Assembly (NCBI GenBank): GCA_002898555.1
Contig: BEHR01000021.1
Coordinates: forward strand, 1 to 62,124
Source of the DNA: a bacterium HR15
GTDB taxonomy: Bacteria > Armatimonadota > Fimbriimonadia > Fimbriimonadales > GBS-DC
DNA: 62,124 nucleotides
Direction: 5' to 3'
In this document: in pieces, positions 1,643 to 47,106 of the stretch
Numbering within the stretch: the first letter of the stretch is position 1
Layout: each line of letters opens with the position of its first letter
Notes under the pieces: model-generated
What the model was told of the DNA's origin: nothing
What the model saw: only the letters and a program-made list of their open reading frames with translations
Databases searched by the model: none
Translations under genes and position numbers: made by a program

Positions 1643-2677
1643 TTAGGGAGCGACGCTCTGACGGATAACCAGCTCACCCCGGATGAGGCAGTTGCCGCGT
1701 TTGACCTCGCCAGTCGTCATCTGCTCCAGCAGCGCCTGGGCGGCATGATAGCCAATCTCATGGATGGGGTTGCGCACGGTGGTCAGGGGCGGGTTCGCCA
1801 GAGCTGCCAACGGTATATCATCGAAGCCAACCACCGAAAGGTCATCGGGCACACGCACCCCATGCTGCTGACACGCCTCCAGCACGCCCAGTGCCATCGG
1901 GTCGTTGCTGGCAATGATGGCTGTAAGCGGTGGGCGTACCCGCAATAGCTGTTCGGCAGCGAGGCGACCGCCTTCTTGAGTGTAGAAGCCACGGGCTAAC
2001 CATTCTGGACGGACACAAATCCCATGCGCTGCCATCGCCCGTCGATAAGCATGCTCACGCTGACGCGCACTCCACTGCTCTTCGGGCCCCTGCACGAAGC
2101 CGATGCGTCGATGCCCACGCTGAATCAACCAGCCCACCACCTCCGTTATCATGCCCTCACTGTCCGAATCCACACAATAGAAGCCCATCGATTCGGGGAG
2201 CGCACTGCCGACCACCACACATGGGAGCTGGGTATGCTCGTGCCATTCCAGCAGCGGACTGCCAATCAGCGGGGCAATCAGGATAGCACCGTCGATGGTG
2301 CCGTCATCGATCTGCGCCCAGAGCAGGCGCGGGTTCAAATCGCGTAGAGTGATAATCTTGATGTGGTAGCCCTCTGGGGTGAAACGGTCCACGACACCAT
2401 CCAACACGGCAGTTGCGTATTCGTTGCGTGTAAAGACGGCATGGGTCGGCTCCATCACGATGCCGATGGTTTGACTGCGACGAGCGGCGAGGCTGCGCGC
2501 GATACGGTTCGGACGGTAGCCTAATTGCCGCGCCACCTGCAGCACGCGCTCCACGGTTTCGGGGCTATGCAGCGTTGCCTTCGCGCCCAGAATGTTGGAT
2601 GCGGTGCCGATGGAAACACCCGCCTCGCGAGCAACCACCGCCAGCGTCGGACGCCTGCGCCTTTTGACCACGCTCAT
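1643..2677 (-). CDS. LacI-family transcriptional regulator
   Basis: A 344-residue DNA-binding repressor of the LacI/GalR family. The N-terminal helix-turn-helix and hinge are clear: [19 protein letters not shown] (about residues 9-27), then the hinge helix region [20 protein letters not shown]. The periplasmic-binding-protein-like effector domain includes [41 protein letters not shown] and [13 protein letters not shown], and ends normally. I chose ATG 2677 because an SD-like AGGTGG precedes it and the HTH starts right after; a longer frame exists upstream but would cross the promoter. It is divergent from alanine racemase. The palindrome between the two genes suggests autoregulation. The effector is probably a sugar by family habit, but no sugar operon adjoins it. 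Confidence 0.93.
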
Positions 2678-2696
2678 CGCCCTACCACCTCTTAAG

Positions 2697-2726
2697 ATTA
2701 TACTCACCTTGTCAGCAAGGTACAAT
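2697..2726 (-). promoter_or_regulatory. lacI-type promoter with palindromic operator candidate
   Basis: On the minus strand TTGTAC (2725-2720) and TATAAT (2702-2697) are separated by exactly 17 bp and lie just upstream of the regulator's SD. Within the spacer sits a perfect inverted repeat ACCTTG-TCAG-CAAGGT (2706-2721), a plausible operator for the LacI protein itself. On the plus strand GGTACAAT overlaps the same palindrome and can serve the alanine racemase gene, so one operator could control both directions. Confidence 0.65.
2721..2726 (+). promoter_or_regulatory. -10 element (GGTACAAT) of alr, leaderless-type
   Basis: TACAAT preceded by GG lies 9 nt before the GTG start of alanine racemase, with no SD between, so transcription would begin at or next to the start codon. 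No good -35 hexamer is seen. Confidence 0.45.
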
Positions 2727-2735
2727 CCAGCCAGT

Positions 2736-3896
2736 GTGGAAGCAAACAACTGGTTGGAAATCGATTTAGGGGCGCTGGTGCGCAATGCACGCCATCTGCA
2801 GACATTGATTGGCAGGCGCTGTGCGCTCTGGGCAGTGGTCAAAGCGGACGCCTACGGTCATGGCGCGATCCCCGTTGCCGATACCCTGCACCGTATGGGC
2901 ATTTCACTCTTCTGGGTTGCCTCGATCGGGGAGGCTATCGAACTTCGTGAGGCGGGCATCTTCGCGCCTATCGCGATGTTCTATCCACCACTCCGCGATG
3001 CCGACTGGGACGCGGTTATGCGCCATGGGCTGGAAGTGGTGATTGAAAGCGAGTCCGGCTATCGGGCAGCGTTGCAAGCCGCGGCACGCTGGAACAGAGC
3101 CGTTGATGCCCATCTGGAGATTGATACGGGCATGAGCCGACTGGGCTGGCGACCAGAGCAACTTCCCGACCTGCTTCAGCTCTGGCGTGCGGATCATCCG
3201 ATTCGCTGGCGAAGCGTGTTTACCCATTTTGCCTGCGCAGATAGTGATCAGGAGCTGACAAAGGAACAGCTTGAGCGGTTTTTGGCGGTTGTGGACAGGC
3301 TTCGGGCGGCAGGCTTCCCGGAGGTGCCGCTGCATGCCGCAGCAAGTGCAGGATTGCTGGCACTACCTGAAAGTCGGCTGAACGCGGTTCGGTGCGGCTT
3401 GCTCCTTTACGGCATCGTGCCCCTTTTCCGATACGGGGATTTCTCGTTTGTCCAAGAGGAGCTTGAACCCGTGTTGCGCTGGCGGGCGCGAGTGCTATCG
3501 GTGCGCACGATTCCCGCAGGACAGGGTGTGAGTTATGGCTGGCGATTCCGCGCGAAGCACCCAATGCGCGTCGCAACGCTCGGCGTGGGCTATGCGGATG
3601 GCTATCCCATTGCGCTGAGCGGGCGAACCGAGGTGCTTTTGCGCGGCAGGCGTATGCCCCAGATCGGGCGCATCTGCATGGATATGATGATGGTCGATGT
3701 CTCTGAGCTACCCGATGTGCAGCCTGGCGAGGTCGCTACGCTCATCGGCAAAGAGGGCGCAGCCTGCATTCGGGTGGAAGAGCTGGCGCATCGGTTGAAC
3801 ACCACACCCCACGAACTCACCACACGACTGGGAAAACGCCCCACACGCCAGATTCTGAAGCCTGCAGGTGAATTTTTCGAGCGAGATTCCGTATAA
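2736..3896 (+). CDS. alr: Alanine racemase
   Basis: PLP-dependent racemase interconverting L- and D-alanine for peptidoglycan synthesis in the cytosol. At 386 residues it has normal family length. The PLP lysine lies in VVKADAYGHG (about K36), the fold-type III TIM barrel follows (EIDTGMSRLGW, FTHFACAD), and the second catalytic base Tyr is in GQGVSYGWRF (about Y267). RVATLGVGYADGYP and GRICMDMMMVDV complete the C-terminal beta domain. I place the start at GTG 2736 because the protein then begins just before the conserved EIDLGALVRNA strand; the longer open frame upstream overlaps the divergent regulator and its promoter. A GGTACAAT box 9 nt before it suggests a leaderless message. Confidence 0.95.
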   Translation: MEANNWLEIDLGALVRNARHLQTLIGRRCALWAVVKADAYGHGAIPVADTLHRMGISLFWVASIGEAIELREAGIFAPIAMFYPPLRDADWDAVMRHGLEVVIESESGYRAALQAAARWNRAVDAHLEIDTGMSRLGWRPEQLPDLLQLWRADHPIRWRSVFTHFACADSDQELTKEQLERFLAVVDRLRAAGFPEVPLHAAASAGLLALPESRLNAVRCGLLLYGIVPLFRYGDFSFVQEELEPVLRWRARVLSVRTIPAGQGVSYGWRFRAKHPMRVATLGVGYADGYPIALSGRTEVLLRGRRMPQIGRICMDMMMVDVSELPDVQPGEVATLIGKEGAACIRVEELAHRLNTTPHELTTRLGKRPTRQILKPAGEFFERDSV

Positions 3897-3927: not shown

Positions 3928-4029
3928 AGAATTTTCTTCTCCGGGTAGCCCAAAATTTTTTCTCTGGGGTACTCCGCGCAGCGGGGTCAGAGAAAAAATT
4001 TTGCCATCTGGGTCGGGAAGAAAATTCTG
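3927..4029. repeat. Nested inverted repeat (AAAATTTT palindrome family)
   Basis: Two perfect stems are nested. The outer stem is CAGAATTTTCTTC (3927-3939) with GAAGAAAATTCTG (4017-4029). The inner stem is AAAATTTTTTCTCTG (3952-3966) with CAGAGAAAAAATTTT (3988-4002). The sequence between the stems, CCATCTGGGTCGG, recurs beside related palindromes near 9.6, 33.6, 39.96 and 42.26 kb. No gene is visible in this gap. Confidence 0.75.
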
Positions 4030-4140
4030 CGTAAGCAACTTCTCATCGCTCAGTGCCGTCTAAGTCAATAGCAGGCACAAAAGGCCCTCACCGCTGGGCA
4101 AAAGAGCGTATCCTAAACCACTATAGGGAGGTCAAAAACG

Positions 4141-5043
4141 ATGGCGACATTCACACCGTACGAGGTCAGCATCATCCTGAGCCGATTGGCGGGCGAAAAG
4201 GCGGACCGGTTTCAGCAAGAGGTGCTTTATCCGCAGCTGGCTCGGGCGATGCGTTTGCGCGTCTCCAGCCCGCAGGAAGTGCGCGAGGCATTGGCAGATG
4301 CTTACTATGCCTTTCGCGCCATGCTGGGCTACTATGCTTTTGCGAAGCGGGGCAACGACCGAGAAGAGTATTCCGCGTTCGCGCTGCAAGCGCTGGAGCG
4401 TGCGCTGAAGGGCAAAAAGGAAAACTTCAGCGCGTTGCTGGCATCAGGTACTGCACCGCAGCAGCTGTGGGAGGCGTTCGTGCAGGTGTGTCAGGAACAT
4501 CAGCGTAAGGTGAATGAGCAACTCAATCGCGGGCTTATCGAAGGGCTGGCGGAATTCGCCACGCGCATCTATCAGGAGGACGAAATCGGCAACATCTGGA
4601 CAACCATCCATCAGGCGATTGTACGCAGCGGGCGTGTGGAACCGATCTACCAACAGATTACTGACATTCGGGGCATCGGTCCGAAGGTCGGCTCGCTGCT
4701 GCTGCGGGATATGGTTGCCCTCTACGAACTGGAGCCGCACATCGACCCAGCCGATTACCACTACCTGCAGCCCGTCGATACCTGGATTCGGCGTATCGGC
4801 CCGATGTTGACGGATGAACTGAACAACGATTCGGCGGACTGGATTATTGCGGGGAAGCTATCCAAGCTCTGCCGTCGCAATCGGGTCAGCGGAGTGCGTT
4901 TCAATCAAGGCGTGCAGTACCTGGCGATTGTGGAGGTGCGCAAACTGGATCTGTTGAAGGACTATCTGCACAAACTCGCGCAGAGCGTTCCTACCTCAAG
5001 CGCACCGCCACGCAGCAGCGCGAGCTTCACTTGGAGGCGATAG
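4141..5043 (+). CDS. Helix-hairpin-helix, HhH-GPD-like protein of unknown function
   Basis: A 300-residue soluble protein. Residues 1-150 are helical and unrecognised. Residues 173-191 read ITDIRGIGPKVGSLLLRDM, a helix-hairpin-helix with a Lys at the position used by bifunctional DNA glycosylases. About 25 residues later comes PVDTWIRRIG (D213), like the catalytic Asp loop PVDTH-x-R of HhH-GPD glycosylases. No Fe-S cysteine cluster follows. The start has a good SD (GGGAGG, about 8 nt). The architecture suggests DNA binding and perhaps base excision, but the N-terminal region matches no glycosylase I know, so substrate and activity are open. It is flanked by unrelated genes. Confidence 0.7.
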   Translation: MATFTPYEVSIILSRLAGEKADRFQQEVLYPQLARAMRLRVSSPQEVREALADAYYAFRAMLGYYAFAKRGNDREEYSAFALQALERALKGKKENFSALLASGTAPQQLWEAFVQVCQEHQRKVNEQLNRGLIEGLAEFATRIYQEDEIGNIWTTIHQAIVRSGRVEPIYQQITDIRGIGPKVGSLLLRDMVALYELEPHIDPADYHYLQPVDTWIRRIGPMLTDELNNDSADWIIAGKLSKLCRRNRVSGVRFNQGVQYLAIVEVRKLDLLKDYLHKLAQSVPTSSAPPRSSASFTWRR

Positions 5044-5097: not shown

Positions 5098-5775
5098 TCA
5101 AGGCGACGCTTCGCCCATACCGAATACGCCCAGCATGCGAAGAATCTCTATGACAGATGGGCGCGGCGTATCAAAAAACAGCCACGGCGCCTCCAGCCAG
5201 AAGCCTGGGATAGCGGCCGATTCGAGCCTGCCTTCCGTCTGCTCAAACACCGTATGCCCCGATTCGCCCTTTCGCACCACGCGCACCACCTGTTCCTGCG
5301 GGTCTACCAGCCATAGTTCAGGCACACCGATCGAACGATAATCCACCTCCAACGCGCGCCATTCAGTGGGATTGTTTGTTTTGGAACGGATCTCCAGCAC
5401 CCAATCGGGCGCCTCCACAATAATCGGCTCCGTGATGATGTGGGCGCGTTCGTGGCGGATAAAAATCATATCGGGTAGGCGTGAGCGGAACTCGTTGATC
5501 TTGACCGCCGACCGCGAGCCAGAGACATAGCCTAACTGCTTTGCCTCCACATAGGTTCGCAGGATCGCCATCAACCATGCAAAAAGCTGCTCATGATGCC
5601 AGACCGCTGCCATCGTTCGCTCCACTAACACGCCGTCGACGAGTTCACACAGATCATCCTCGTCGGTAAAGCGTAAATACTCCTCTACCGTGAGCGGCTG
5701 GTTTGCTGCCCACATGCGAGGCGCCCGTTGACGCACGCGCCTGAGCTGCGCTCGCTTTGCTATCTGCTTGACCAT
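5098..5775 (-). CDS. Uma2-family restriction-endonuclease-like protein
   Basis: A 225-residue member of the Uma2 (DUF820) family, PD-(D/E)XK-fold proteins abundant in cyanobacteria and other multicopy genomes. Typical features are LTVEEYLRFTDEDDLCELVDGVLVE near residue 35, SAVKINEFRSRLPDMIFI, the catalytic-type strand DWVLEIRSKTN, and SIGVPELWLVDPQEQVV. The biological role of the family is unsettled. ATG 5775 is preferred over a longer frame because it lies 8 nt from a GGGTATACT box on the same strand (leaderless pattern) and upstream residues do not match the family. A second Uma2 gene lies at about 25.3 kb. Confidence 0.85.
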   Translation of the reverse strand: MVKQIAKRAQLRRVRQRAPRMWAANQPLTVEEYLRFTDEDDLCELVDGVLVERTMAAVWHHEQLFAWLMAILRTYVEAKQLGYVSGSRSAVKINEFRSRLPDMIFIRHERAHIITEPIIVEAPDWVLEIRSKTNNPTEWRALEVDYRSIGVPELWLVDPQEQVVRVVRKGESGHTVFEQTEGRLESAAIPGFWLEAPWLFFDTPRPSVIEILRMLGVFGMGEASP

Positions 5776-5782
5776 ATAACGA

Positions 5783-5816
5783 GAGTATACCCTGAGCCAC
5801 CGAATCGGGTATACTC
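5783..5816. promoter_or_regulatory. Divergent promoter pair in a perfect inverted repeat
   Basis: GAGTATACCC (5783-5792) and GGGTATACTC (5807-5816) are exact inverted copies separated by 14 bp. Each strand therefore presents GGGTATACT as a -10, one facing the Uma2 gene (leaderless spacing) and one facing icd (with a 22-nt leader containing GGAGG). The palindrome could also bind a regulator. Confidence 0.55.
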
Positions 5817-5838
5817 CACGCGACTGGAGGAACAAGCA

Positions 5839-12885: not shown

Positions 12886-14556
12886 TTGCGGGGGATTGAT
12901 TATCCTCGCAGCGTGGATGTGCGTATGGGCTGGGATGGTGAGAACCGTCGGGTGTGGGTGGAGGATGGCGCAGGCAGACGCGACTACACCTACGACGCTT
13001 GGGGGCACGTGCGGGAGCAACGCGGCTGCTGTGGCAGTGGGGAAGGCATCGAGGTGGTCGCCGTCTCCGCTGAGTATGACCCCGCAGGCAGGAAACGCTT
13101 TGAGAAAGAGTTGCGGGCGGATAACAGCGTGGTGCGCACGATAGAGAACGGTTATGACAAGTTAGGACGGTTGCAGAGTGTGGGCGACAATCGGGGCACG
13201 GTGGTGTATACTTATGACAACGCGACGGGACGGCTGAAGCGCGAGGACTATCCGAACGGGAGTTATGTAGAGTATACCTACTATGGTGCGGATAATCCGT
13301 CGCAGGTGGGCTTTGTGTGGAAGGTGGAACACAAGAAAGCGGATGGCACTTTGCTGATAGGGTATGAGTACACCTATGACCTGTTGGGTCGTGTGGTGCA
13401 GAGCGTGGAGCGTCGTCCTGATAATCCCGCAGGGGACACGACGGTTTACACTTACACGCCTGCAGGGAGGCTGGAGAGCGAACAGCGCACAGGTCAGGTG
13501 GCGTATTCGCGGGTGTATGAGTACAACTTGGATGGTAGTCGGCGGAGCGTGTATCGGAACGATGCGTTGAACGGGGCGCATCACGATTTTTACGAGTATG
13601 ACTTGGTCAGTGGTCGGTTGCGTGCGGTGGAGGATCGGGTAAGTGGTGTGCCGCCGTATCCGCGGCATGAGTTTGTATGGAACGCGGAGGGCACTTTGGC
13701 GCGTTGGGATGACCCGTCTGTGGCGTATGATCGGGTGTTTTCGTATGATGAGGAGGGTCGTTTGGTGCGGATAGAGCGGGATTATGGGGATGGCAGTTTG
13801 CAGGTGGCGTATGAGTATGGGTACAACAGTGATGGGGTTCGTGTGTGGAAGGGGGACTATCTCAGTCAGCAGGAGTATCGGTATGTGTGTCGGATAGGGT
13901 GTGGAGGCGTGCCGATGCGGGTGTACAGTCGGGCGATGGGTGGAACGAGCTGGTCAAGCGTGGAGGACTACCTGCCTGTAGGCAACGCGCTGGGGTACAA
14001 TCAGAACTGGCAGTATCGGCACACAGGCGGGGAGTTGCTGATGATGGGTGCTACGGGCGAGCCGAGCGGGTACTATCCGATGGACAGAAACGGTTTGGCG
14101 GTGCAGAGCGAGCTGCCTGCGCCGTGTGTGTGCCCCGTGGTGCAGCCACAAGCCCCGATGGTCTGTCCACCGCTGGGATATGGGGGATGCAACGAAGGAG
14201 ATAATCAAATCGAAGAATGCATAAAGAAATGCAAAAAGAAGAGAGGACGTGCGTTCTGGAAATGTTTTGCCTCTTGCATGGGCGAAAAGCTTACGGATAA
14301 AGCAATAGATGATTTGTTAAATGAATCCTGTGTGAAATACTTTTGCAAAGTCTTTAGTGGGGTACCGCAGTGCGCGAAGGGAAATCCCTGTGAAATTAGC
14401 CCTTCTGATATTGCTGACTGTCAAAATTGCTGTGATATTAAATGGGCTTGTTGTGTTGGCAATATTCGCGGCGGGTGGTGGCCTCCTTTCCGAGGATTTA
14501 TAGAATGGAATAGGTGTTATGCTGAATGGAATGAATGCTATACCAACTGTAATTAG
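12886..14556 (+). CDS. RHS/YD-repeat protein, 5'-truncated, with Cys-rich tail
   Basis: YD repeats build the RHS shell. At least nine are visible, for example YDAWGHV, YDKLGRL, YDNATGRLKREDYPNGSYVEY, YDLLGRVV, YDLVSGRL and YDEEGRLVRIE. Coding similarity already starts at 12796 (after a stop) with YTYDTWGRLRGIDYP, before any good start codon; TTG 12886 is just the first possible one, so the true N-terminus is missing. The usual core RYYDP..GRF is absent. Instead the chain passes through GGELLMMGATGEPSGYYP into a 130-residue tail with about 20 cysteines (CVCPVV, CIKKCKKK, CFASC, CQNCCD, CCVG, YTNCN). The tail may be a displaced toxin or a disulfide-rich effector. A membrane-anchored gene follows 12 nt later. 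RHS assignment firm, function of the tail unknown. Confidence 0.8.
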   Translation: MRGIDYPRSVDVRMGWDGENRRVWVEDGAGRRDYTYDAWGHVREQRGCCGSGEGIEVVAVSAEYDPAGRKRFEKELRADNSVVRTIENGYDKLGRLQSVGDNRGTVVYTYDNATGRLKREDYPNGSYVEYTYYGADNPSQVGFVWKVEHKKADGTLLIGYEYTYDLLGRVVQSVERRPDNPAGDTTVYTYTPAGRLESEQRTGQVAYSRVYEYNLDGSRRSVYRNDALNGAHHDFYEYDLVSGRLRAVEDRVSGVPPYPRHEFVWNAEGTLARWDDPSVAYDRVFSYDEEGRLVRIERDYGDGSLQVAYEYGYNSDGVRVWKGDYLSQQEYRYVCRIGCGGVPMRVYSRAMGGTSWSSVEDYLPVGNALGYNQNWQYRHTGGELLMMGATGEPSGYYPMDRNGLAVQSELPAPCVCPVVQPQAPMVCPPLGYGGCNEGDNQIEECIKKCKKKRGRAFWKCFASCMGEKLTDKAIDDLLNESCVKYFCKVFSGVPQCAKGNPCEISPSDIADCQNCCDIKWACCVGNIRGGWWPPFRGFIEWNRCYAEWNECYTNCN

Positions 14557-15377: not shown

Positions 15378-16559
15378 TTGATACGGGAGGTGCGCACGGG
15401 TTCGTCGGCGTACAGGGTGGAGTATACTTACGACAAGGTAGGCAACCGTTTGACGCGCACGCGCACGGTGAACGGGCAGACGGTGGTGGATGTGCTGAGC
15501 TACAACGCGGCGAACCAGTTGAAGTCGTTGAATGGTCAATCGTGGGAACACGATGCGGACGGGAATGTGGTGGTGCGTCGGGTGAACGGCGAGACTTGGG
15601 AGTTGGGCTATGACTCGGAGGGCAACTTGGTGCGTGTGAAGCGTCAAGGGGCAAGTGTTGGCTGGGTCTATACTTATGACGGTTTAGGTCGTCGGGTGAA
15701 GGCGCAGCTGGGCAGCAATACGCTGGAGTTTCTGTACGGCGCTGGTGATGCAGTGCTTGCCGAGCGTGCGAACGGTGGTGCGTGGGTGGTGCAGAGTTTC
15801 GGTGCGGGGCTGTACCAGCGCGGGAGCGACTACCTGCACTGGAATCTGCGTGGGGATTTGGCAGGAATCGGGGCTTCCAGCGCGAATGTGCCGATTACCG
15901 ATGCGTTTGGGGATTTGGTGAACGGGATGCGAGCGGTGTACGACTGGAACGGGGCGTGGTTGTATCGGAACGAGCTGACCGAGACGGGTGGCTTGGTGCA
16001 GGTCGGTGTGCGCTGGTACGACCCTGTGGTAGGACGCTTCCTGCAGCAAGACCCGTGGCTGGGTTCGGTCTATGCTCCCCTCACGCTGAATGCTTATGTC
16101 TACTGCCTGAATGACCCCGTGAATGCGGTGGATCCGAGTGGGATGTTGCATATAGTCTATAATGGTCAAACAAACCGCATTAAAGTCTATGCGGACGAAG
16201 GTGATGTTGACGCAAGCGGCCAACGGCGTCGGCATGGTGATCTCATCCTCAACGAACCAGCGCATAACAATACCACGCGGAACAGTAATGGTCCCTTCCC
16301 TGAAGGTACTTTTGATGTGGCTGGTGTTTTCGATAATACTGGAGATCGCGCCGACCGCGTACCAAGCCAAGGCCCCGTGTTTATCTGGATCAATCCTGTT
16401 CCTGGGCGCTCCGAGATGGGGATACATGGTGGTAGAGGCGATCCTACTTATCCAACACTAGGTTGTATTCGTACTTCTGACGAGACAGCACAGCGTATCG
16501 CAGACTTGATTCGGAGGAACCCAAGATCGAACAATCGGCTTACGGTTGTTCAGGACTGA
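15378..16559 (+). CDS. RHS core with L,D-transpeptidase-like C-terminal domain
   Basis: 393 residues from TTG 15378; YD-repeat similarity begins at 15351, right after an in-frame stop. YD repeats ([39 protein letters not shown]) lead to the RHS core ([50 protein letters not shown]). After DPSG the tail is a new domain of about 138 residues: [25 protein letters not shown], and then MGIHGG...PTLGCIRT followed by a helix. H-G plus G-C-I-R with that spacing is the catalytic signature of L,D-transpeptidase (YkuD-like) folds, including DUF2778/Tlde-type effectors that attack peptidoglycan crosslinks. I infer a peptidoglycan-modifying toxin. A gene with a good SD follows at once. Confidence 0.8.
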
Positions 16560-17537: not shown

Positions 17538-18095
17538 TTGGCAAACTGCATGCGTCAGGTGTATGACTGGAACGGTGCGTGGTTGTATCGGAACGAGCTG
17601 ACCGAGACGGGAGGCTTGGTGCAGGTCGGTGTACGCTGGTACGACCCTGCGGTGGGACGGTTCCTGCAGCAAGACCCATGGCTAGGTTCGGTCTATGCTC
17701 CCCTCACGCTGAATGCTTATGTCTACTGCCTGAATGACCCCGTGAATGCGGTGGATCCGAGTGGGGAGCGAGCGTTTGTTGTGCGGTTGCTTATAATGCT
17801 TGGAATTGCCATCGCTTCGCCAGCGGATGAGATACTAATTGGTGTTGGACTCATTGTGGTGGGACTGGTAGGTTCCCCCGAGTTATGGAAAGACGGCACT
17901 CCGATGCCTGTAGTTCACCAGCGCCATATAGATTACGCGATATGGCTTGAAGATAATCGAGCATCACGGTCACTCCCTGGGATTTCACAGCAGCCCTATA
18001 TTGGTCCTGGTTTCTGTGATGTGGTTAGGGAGAAGCCGCGCTTTGTAGATCCGCTACCCCGCCCCATTATGGATTGGGTAACGCATTATCTATGA
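17538..18095 (+). CDS. Orphan RHS core module with C-terminal tail 2
   Basis: 185 residues. Residues 5-75 repeat the RHS core almost exactly as in the previous RHS gene ([15 protein letters not shown] through NAVDPSG). After DPSG the tail is different: a hydrophobic hairpin ([30 protein letters not shown]) then about 65 polar residues of unknown family. There is no shell and no clear SD, so it is a displaced module that would need recombination with an intact RHS gene to be used. Its stop overlaps the next start (ATGA). Confidence 0.7.
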
Positions 18096-18521: not shown

Positions 18522-19217
18522 ATGGCAGTATCGGACCTACCTGGGAACTTGGCAGGAATCGATACTTCCGCAGCGAATGTAGCGATGACCGATGCGTTTG
18601 GGGATTTGGTGAACGGGATGCGTCAGGTGTACGACTGGAACGGGGCGTGGTTGTATCGGAACGAGCTGACCGAGGCGGGTGGCTTGGTGCAGGTCGGCGT
18701 GCGCTGGTATGACCCTGTGGTAGGACGGTTCCTGCAGCAAGACCCGTGGCTGGGTTCTATGGAAGCACCATTAACCCTCAATGGATATTTGTATTGTATC
18801 AATAATCCAATTCAATTTGTAGATCCAACAGGTCAATGGGTGTGGATTGTAGTGGTTGGGGTAGCAGTAGCAGCGATGGGTATATGGTTGTGGTATGTAT
18901 CTGAAGAAGATCCGAAAGCAGATGACGGTATCGTTGAAGGACTTAAAGGATTTTGTCAAGGAAGTGGAGAGGCTGCTTCAGAGCTAGGGGATTTTGGTGG
19001 AGGTGCCCTCGCGGTAGCGGATACGGGATTAACGGCTGCAGAAGGTGGACTTACCTTAGGAGAAGGTGTAAAACATGTTGGAGGCTCCCGGTTACGTTAT
19101 GAAGACGCGCTTGAAGGTTCTGATCCAGAAGCACCCGGTGAGATTTGGGAGCGAGTTAGTAATACATCAGGAGGAGAGTATTGGAAATATTATCCAGGTG
19201 GGAGGAGAAAGAGGTGA
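18522..19217 (+). CDS. Orphan RHS core module with C-terminal tail 3
   Basis: 231 residues. The N-terminus ([23 protein letters not shown]) and [18 protein letters not shown]...[13 protein letters not shown] repeat the RHS core. DNA identity with the other copies stops in the codons for LGS, after which [24 protein letters not shown] is only protein-level similar. The tail has one TM helix ([21 protein letters not shown]) and an acidic/Gly-rich region ending [19 protein letters not shown]. The stop overlaps the next start (GTGA). Function of the tail is unknown. Confidence 0.7.
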
Positions 19218-46191: not shown

Positions 46192-47106
46192 TTACCCATG
46201 AGGGTGCCCCTTCGCGCCCATCAAATGAGCGGTGAACAGGTACTGGTGCGCCCAGCCTGAAAGCTCGCCAAAGGTCGTGTGGAACCATTCCGTGATCTCA
46301 CGGTAGGTACGCTCGGTCAGATTGCGGGGGCGTAAGTGGGGCAGCAGCCAATGGCGCATCGCCTGCCACAAATGGGTATCCACGGGCACGGCAAGTGGGT
46401 TATCCAATCCAAACAGCAGCACACAATCGGCAATCTTCGCGCCCACGCCGGGCAACTGGCACAACTCACGCTTCGCTTGCTCATAAGGCAACTCGCGCAG
46501 ACTGGTGAGCCAGCCTTCGCCACGCTCCACAAGGGCGCGCGCCGCCTCTATCAGCGTGCGGGCACGATAGCCAAAGCCCAGCGTGCGCAACTCCGTTTCC
46601 GAAGCATTCACCAGGGTTTGCGCTTTCGGAAATGCCCGCCAGAGACGCCCGTTCCATTCCCCAAGAGGTTCACCATAACGCTCGCACAGCCGCTCGATCA
46701 TGCCTGTGATACGGGGGATGTTATTCGCAGGCGTACACAAAAACGAGAAAAGGCACTCCTCCGCGTCCAGCCAGCGCATCAGTCGCAACCCCGGCAACGC
46801 AGCCACCCATTCTGCCCAGCGGGGATGCAACCGAATCAGGCGCGCTTGAATCTGCTTCAGGTCAACCTCCATTCGGAATAGATGTCTGAAAACAGGCAGT
46901 GGCTCGTGTCCGTTGGGGGCAAGCAGTCGCCAGCGCGAACCCACTGGCTGCACTATCAGCATACGCTCCCCTGCAAGCCCCAGCCATGCCGCTTCACCAG
47001 TGGGCTGCCAGCGGAACACCTGCCCACTCGTCACACAAAGAGGCAGGTCCAGCTCCCCAACGGGCACGGAAACCCTCTGCTCCACCATCACCCATGCGAC
47101 GCCCAT
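46192..47106 (-). CDS. ogg: 8-oxoguanine DNA glycosylase (Ogg1-type)
   Basis: Bifunctional base-excision glycosylase/lyase for oxidised guanine. 304 residues. N-terminal TBP-like domain with SGQVFRWQPTG. Helix region EECLFSFLCTPANNIPRITGMIERLCERYG. HhH LPGVGAKIADCVLLFG with catalytic Lys224, and PVDTHLWQ with Asp243, equivalent to K249 and D268 of human OGG1. Start ATG 47106 preceded by GGAAGAGGGTCA. Convergent with the SARP gene. Ogg1-type enzymes are less common in bacteria than MutM. Confidence 0.92.
   Translation of the reverse strand: MGVAWVMVEQRVSVPVGELDLPLCVTSGQVFRWQPTGEAAWLGLAGERMLIVQPVGSRWRLLAPNGHEPLPVFRHLFRMEVDLKQIQARLIRLHPRWAEWVAALPGLRLMRWLDAEECLFSFLCTPANNIPRITGMIERLCERYGEPLGEWNGRLWRAFPKAQTLVNASETELRTLGFGYRARTLIEAARALVERGEGWLTSLRELPYEQAKRELCQLPGVGAKIADCVLLFGLDNPLAVPVDTHLWQAMRHWLLPHLRPRNLTERTYREITEWFHTTFGELSGWAHQYLFTAHLMGAKGHPHG

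Follow-up and report, generated by a model that had tools for sequence, protein, structure and literature searches.

What kind of protein is encoded at positions 4141 to 5043 (forward strand) of the window, the whole 62,124-nt stretch of DNA analyzed here? A sequence-only reading had proposed a possible new DNA-glycosylase-like family that fits none of Nth, MutY, AlkA, or Ogg1. The HhH-GPD glycosylases are a well-studied superfamily. We conclude, with a probability of about 0.8, that the encoded protein (P0001) represents a new subfamily of the HhH-GPD (endonuclease III) fold. Its most likely function, which we put at slightly better than even odds, is a putative glycosylase-lyase mechanism based on a Lys and an Asp. 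Across the order Fimbriimonadales, the analysis found a new family characterized by an HhH-GPD-like hairpin together with a Lys and an Asp, and that part of the proposal stands; the glycosylase function stays putative.

The gene comprises 300 codons plus a stop, and a GGAGG-type motif resembling a ribosome-binding site was read by eye directly 5′ of its ATG (4127–4132, forward strand, as are all features of the gene given below). The dN/dS ratio was 0.04–0.12 in seven gene pairs of host family f1 (two pairs had dS > 1.5, near saturation), and P0001 is a real protein under strong purifying selection. Both motifs on which the proposal was based were present: the helix-hairpin-helix (HhH) motif IRGIGPKVGSLLLRD (residues 176–190) and PVDTWIRRIG (residues 211–220), which contain Lys182 (4684–4686), the presumed nucleophile, and Asp213 (4777–4779), its presumed activator. 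The HhH region, as placed by profile comparison, spans residues 173–195 (I..RGIGPKVGSLLLRDMVALY; 4657–4725). Downstream are Trp215 (4783–4785), a basic stretch at residues 233–246 that is a helix in both AlphaFold models (DWIIAGKLSKLCRR; 4837–4878), and the FNQG element at residues 254–257 (4900–4911), which may be a base-reading loop. The C-terminal tail (residues 283–300; 4987–5040) ends in SFTWRR and is of low confidence (pLDDT < 50 in model 1). This variable tail ended in WR[RG] in 15 of the 16 rows of alignment A1 (L014 lacks it), and the ending was absent from the sampled f3 proteins; it may serve as a docking peptide in family f1.

P0001 has a pI of 8.9 and two cysteines, C117 and C244. 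The iron-sulfur cysteine pattern of Nth and MutY is C-X6-C-X2-C-X5-C, which was present in 0 of 74 family rows, in agreement with the earlier remark that such cysteines are missing. Nth and MutY proteins without the cluster exist, so the absence of cysteines alone does not exclude either family.

The family is conserved but unnamed in Pfam, NCBIfam, PADLOC, and PHROGs. On P0001, all Pfam and NCBIfam models stayed below their cut-offs, and the four Pfam rows obtained at E up to 10 were FlaF (0.0072), ADH_Fe_C (0.047), IMS_HHH (0.14; residues 173–189, over the hairpin), and Fusello_VP2_Capsid (0.33). PF00730 gave no row for P0001 at E up to 10, and the PF00730 search of the window's genome (G000) omitted the P0001 locus. 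PF07934 (OGG_N) also gave no row for P0001, whereas the true Ogg1 that had been reported in the window (46192–47106, reverse strand) was recovered with OGG_N (3.7e-08) and HhH-GPD (2.1e-12). Judged by family search, P0001 is thus not Nth, MutY, AlkA, or Ogg1, as had been claimed. A PDB sequence search with P0001 returned one chance-like row (E = 0.69), PADLOC gave no row for any of five proteins, PHROGs gave stray rows only, and a search of P0003 against plasmids returned a single chance-like row (E = 0.08). Literature searches, with subscription journals mostly outside their coverage, found no paper on the family.

A genome-contig scan, which detects close relatives only, found 15 relatives, 14 of them in records named Armatimonadetes, Armatimonadota, or Fimbriimonadales/Fimbriimonadia, the fifteenth being in a record labeled simply as bacterium. 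The profile built from these relatives matched 73 of 291 genomes of the phylum: 72 of the 113 Fimbriimonadales genomes carried the family, and the remaining match (G284) was outside the order. The G284 copy (L047:2190-2942) is a broken relative with an internal stop, located amid respiratory complex I-like ORFs. The wider profile A2 (an alignment of 40 rows: the window protein, 38 of 48 other relatives in one search, and a Haloquadratum protein) matched the same number of genomes, and all 73 matches obtained with it among 397 genomes were within Armatimonadota, in a sample covering a minority of phyla. Further samples of five and 386 genomes gave no match and one match, respectively, the latter in a member of Fimbriimonadales (G156). 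Outside the phylum, the only relatives among 72,556 plasmid records were on the Haloquadratum walsbyi plasmids PL100 and PL47, annotated as hypothetical proteins, and no relatives were found in the phage records and viral contigs searched. The tree (72 rows) mirrored host families f1, f2, f3, and f4; the family therefore appears to be inherited vertically. One genome (G067) has an additional, strongly divergent copy, P0002 (L046:2201-2986), of unlike letter make-up, which keeps the Lys and the Asp, unlike the order-typical copy of the same genome, which is without the Asp.

Sequence comparison supports a glycosylase-like hairpin and nothing beyond. With A2, hhalign ranked OGG2 first (P = 5.1e-06, Prob 86), followed by the window Ogg1 (2.6e-04), Nth (5.9e-04), MutY (0.013), and AGOG (0.12). 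Against OGG2, the hairpin profile of A2 scored 46.5, whereas none of 30 controls made by reversing A2 or shuffling its columns went above 19.6, and the Ogg1 and Nth matches also exceeded these controls; the real AGOG score (18.4) was below that of its best shuffle (28.5). When the hairpin was masked, every profile signal disappeared. In a PDB hmmsearch with A2, M. jannaschii OGG2 (E = 0.22) and S. solfataricus Ogg (E = 0.38) were both matched over the hairpin, accompanied by unrelated rows of similar E.

Both AlphaFold models were built on 16 close sequences (model 1, mean pLDDT 69.7; model 2, residues 6–282, mean pLDDT 74.9, pTM 0.72). The N-terminal and hairpin helices were mostly confident, and the N-terminal half was helical in both models, as the sequence-only reading had anticipated; the last 70 residues were poorly modeled. 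Foldseek searches against the PDB gave best rows that were not significant (model 1, AGOG 1xg7, E = 0.95; model 2, a designed PPR protein, E = 0.77), HhH-GPD glycosylases made up 0 of 37 rows for model 2, and the viral fold library gave no significant row. Structural re-alignment was run on Foldseek's PDB candidates and is hence limited to those families. For model 1, HhH-superfamily glycosylases accounted for 41 of the 50 matches listed (top Z 7.0, rmsd 3.4, 118 aligned). For model 2, the best 10 of the 46 matches listed were all HhH-superfamily glycosylases, with Z values of 7.6 (rmsd 6.3, 160 aligned) and 7.5 (rmsd 3.3, 118 aligned) at the top and a dehalogenase (Z 5.7) as the best unrelated row. 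Ogg1 was among the top rows in both re-alignments, and AlkA-type rows reached only Z 4.2–4.8 among the matches listed. According to the tool's own note, Z < 8 indicates a possibly common arrangement; homology is favored because OGG1, EndoIII, MutY, ROS1, and OGG2 all rank first. Several alignments end at residue 210 of P0001 against residue 266 of OGG1 or 136 of Nth, which puts D213 no more than one residue away from D268, the Asp on which OGG1 catalysis depends (numbering from an excerpt of PMC9638937). The comparison with HhH-GPD folds that had been suggested thus favors these glycosylases, and the two-domain cleft is not confident in the models.

The distance between the Lys and the Asp was 31 in 73 of the 74 family rows and 29 in one, compared with 18 in both Nth and OGG2, 19 in Ogg1, and 32 in AGOG in the proteins examined. 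In AGOG, the spacing has been explained by a second hairpin helix approximately twice as long and a longer linker (PMC3397491, in part). In our models, the second hairpin helix extends over residues 180/181–194 and a short helix lies ahead of D213; the spacing of 31 and the long second helix of the models fit the AGOG geometry. The combination of a canonical hairpin with AGOG-like spacing is the main new structural point and, together with the lineages that lost the Asp (below), goes beyond the earlier reading.

Among the closest known families, the OGG2 (NF002305; PDB 3fhf, 3fhg, and 3knt) hairpin, IKGIGYKEASHFLRN, is very similar to that of P0001, and 3knt aligned with model 2 (Z 6.3, rmsd 6.3, 160 aligned), but outside the hairpin there is no similarity and NF002305 had no match in G000. 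Identification as OGG2 by the hairpin was ruled out, given the different spacing and the effect of masking. AGOG (PF09171; PDB 1xqo, 1xg7, and 7p8l) is all-helical with a long second hairpin helix and linker, like P0001, but its hairpin reads REQK instead of the canonical GIGPK, and its D218/W222 pair is unmatched in P0001. Identification as AGOG by the spacing was ruled out, there being no profile signal and no PF09171 match in G000 at E of 10. Ogg1 (OGG_N plus HhH-GPD, including the window copy) shares with P0001 an HhH-GPD-type hairpin with Lys and PVD, but differs in spacing and in its OGG_N domain. Nth and MutY have the two-part helical fold in common with P0001 in re-alignment (Z 5.3–7.4), but not the iron-sulfur cysteines; the spacing of Nth is shorter and the profile match is weak.

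G180, K182, and R189 were invariant (74/74 rows), D190 and W234 were each present in 73 rows, D233 in 72, K239 in 71, and D213 in 67; G257 was present in 73 of 73. These counts omit duplicates L066–L075 and L105, the second L056 fragment, and the L047 fragments, and the tree also omits the fragments of L056 and L104. Both K182 and D213 persisted in relatives at distances above four changes per column. G180, K182, R189, D213, S250, F254, N255, Q256, G257, and Y260 are all present in the two distant relatives, whereas R217, G238, and K239 are not conserved there, which suggests that the Lys and the Asp predate much of the other conserved surface. The seven rows without the Asp were all five sampled f2 members and two f3 members (G083 and G138), and two changes on the tree are needed to explain them. 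W215 was lost jointly, being present in 0 of these seven rows compared with 63 of the 65 in-order rows with the Asp, whereas K182, R189, D190, R217, D233, W234, A237, G238, K239, and R245 were kept in all seven. Changing the Asp of AGOG to Asn or Gln made activity undetectable (PMC9638937, in part), so the usual route of excision is expected to be closed to the Asp-less proteins; the Asp-less lineages probably lost or changed the chemistry and kept the scaffold.

Under the glycosylase-lyase mechanism, DNA would be bound by the hairpin and the basic helix, and the base would be flipped into the cleft between the two helical parts. D213 would then activate K182 for attack on C1′, leading to a Schiff base and base release, possibly followed by AP-lyase cutting. 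A fuller picture, which we offer tentatively and at clearly less than even odds, is that of a bacterial all-helical Lys/Asp HhH-GPD lineage with a canonical hairpin, a second helix of AGOG length, and a substrate of its own, inherited vertically in Fimbriimonadales and twice made Asp-less with the scaffold kept for a non-excising role.

Three other explanations bear on the same data. If P0001 were a non-catalytic protein derived from the HhH-GPD fold, it would recognize damaged or structured DNA by the hairpin and the basic helix and leave the glycosidic bond uncut. The retention of ten other residues in all seven rows after two losses of the Asp with W215 implies a scaffold that is useful without the Asp, and the basic pI points the same way. 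However, the window's lineage and both distant relatives keep the Lys and the Asp, a pair that DNA binding by itself would not require, and the Asp-less rows are on long branches (0.68–1.9 compared with a median of 0.34); we consider this explanation unlikely. If P0001 were an ordinary 8-oxoguanine glycosylase, a divergent member of AGOG or OGG2, this would account for the spacing close to that of AGOG, the OGG2 hairpin as best profile match, and AGOG as the top Foldseek row for model 1. This explanation is very improbable considering that neither PF09171 nor NF002305 finds anything in G000, that the AGOG profile scores under its own shuffles, that the OGG2 spacing differs, and that the presence of the family in the order does not follow that of Ogg1.

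The third explanation is an N-glycosidase or transferase whose substrates are nucleosides, nucleotides, or modified bases and not damaged DNA, in the manner of QNG1/DUF2419 or the phage 5-PmdU glycinyltransferase; DUF2419 is reported to resemble DNA glycosylases yet to free queuine from Q (PMC9406330, in part). The queuosine-monophosphate N-glycosidase QNG1 (7u91), with its helical glycosylase-like fold, ranked third for model 1 (Z 6.8, rmsd 5.1, 165 aligned); with the same model, Z was 4.8 for the phage enzyme (8z2m). Both structures were nevertheless absent from the matches listed for model 2, no queuosine-salvage family was among the four Pfam rows of P0001, and a canonical hairpin serves to bind DNA, all of which make this explanation improbable. 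We retain the glycosylase-lyase mechanism as the most likely, putative function.

The repair gene set of the genome does not suggest a substrate. PF00730 found MutY, Nth, and Ogg1 in G000 (MutY and Nth were named by reading), and there were two UDG matches and one AAG match. Because Ogg1, MutY, Nth, AAG, and two UDG-fold proteins are already encoded, no vacant repair role indicates what P0001 acts on. Among the 113 genomes of the order, 46 had both the family and Ogg1, 26 had the family only, 24 had Ogg1 only, and 17 had neither (Fisher's test, P = 0.69; Ogg1 was counted by OGG_N at E of 1e-5, and weak Ogg1 may be missed). Since these counts show no association between the family and Ogg1, a role as substitute for a missing Ogg1 was ruled out. 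Filling a gap in uracil or alkyl-purine repair was also ruled out, UDG being present in 110 and AAG in 103 of the 113 genomes and both in G000. The base is read by D218/W222 in AGOG and by D194/W198 in OGG2 (PMC3397491, in part); by analogy, this task might fall to N255/Q256 and Y260 in P0001.

No repair genes were found near the family gene in the neighborhoods inspected. In the window, its neighbors are alr (2592–3896) and a Uma2-like ORF on the opposite strand (5098–5835; both named by reading). In f2 and f3 loci, a TPR/caspase-like gene precedes the family gene (17 loci), and coaX, glmM, and grpE face it (names by reading); this arrangement, which was not found in f1 loci, is taken as shared ancestry of the region. 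At L048:2928-4244, L065:4696-6048, and L061:4099-5442, the TPR and caspase-like gene is upstream on the same strand, 12–28 bases off, and by reading its usual His and Cys, in what we take to be the caspase-like motif, seem replaced. Elsewhere in the window, RHS/YD-repeat-like ORFs were read at 12–860, 12886–14556, 15378–16559, 17538–18095, and 18522–19217; those starting at 15378, 17538, and 18522 have a common core (41 protein letters) followed by differing C-terminal ends, like an exchangeable-tip array. A dispersed short repeat, GGGTCAGAGAAAAA, occurs at 3984, 9629 (reverse strand), 33624, and 39961 (reverse strand), and the copy upstream of the P0001 gene (3951–4003) belongs to an inverted repeat.

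A subfamily of this kind, conserved throughout the order, would bring a further repair or base-processing activity to a phylum that has been little studied. Where D213 and W215 disappeared together and the remainder of the site stayed, nature has provided an experiment on what the scaffold does without the Asp, and the pairing of a canonical hairpin with a linker of AGOG length informs how the odd geometry of AGOG arose.
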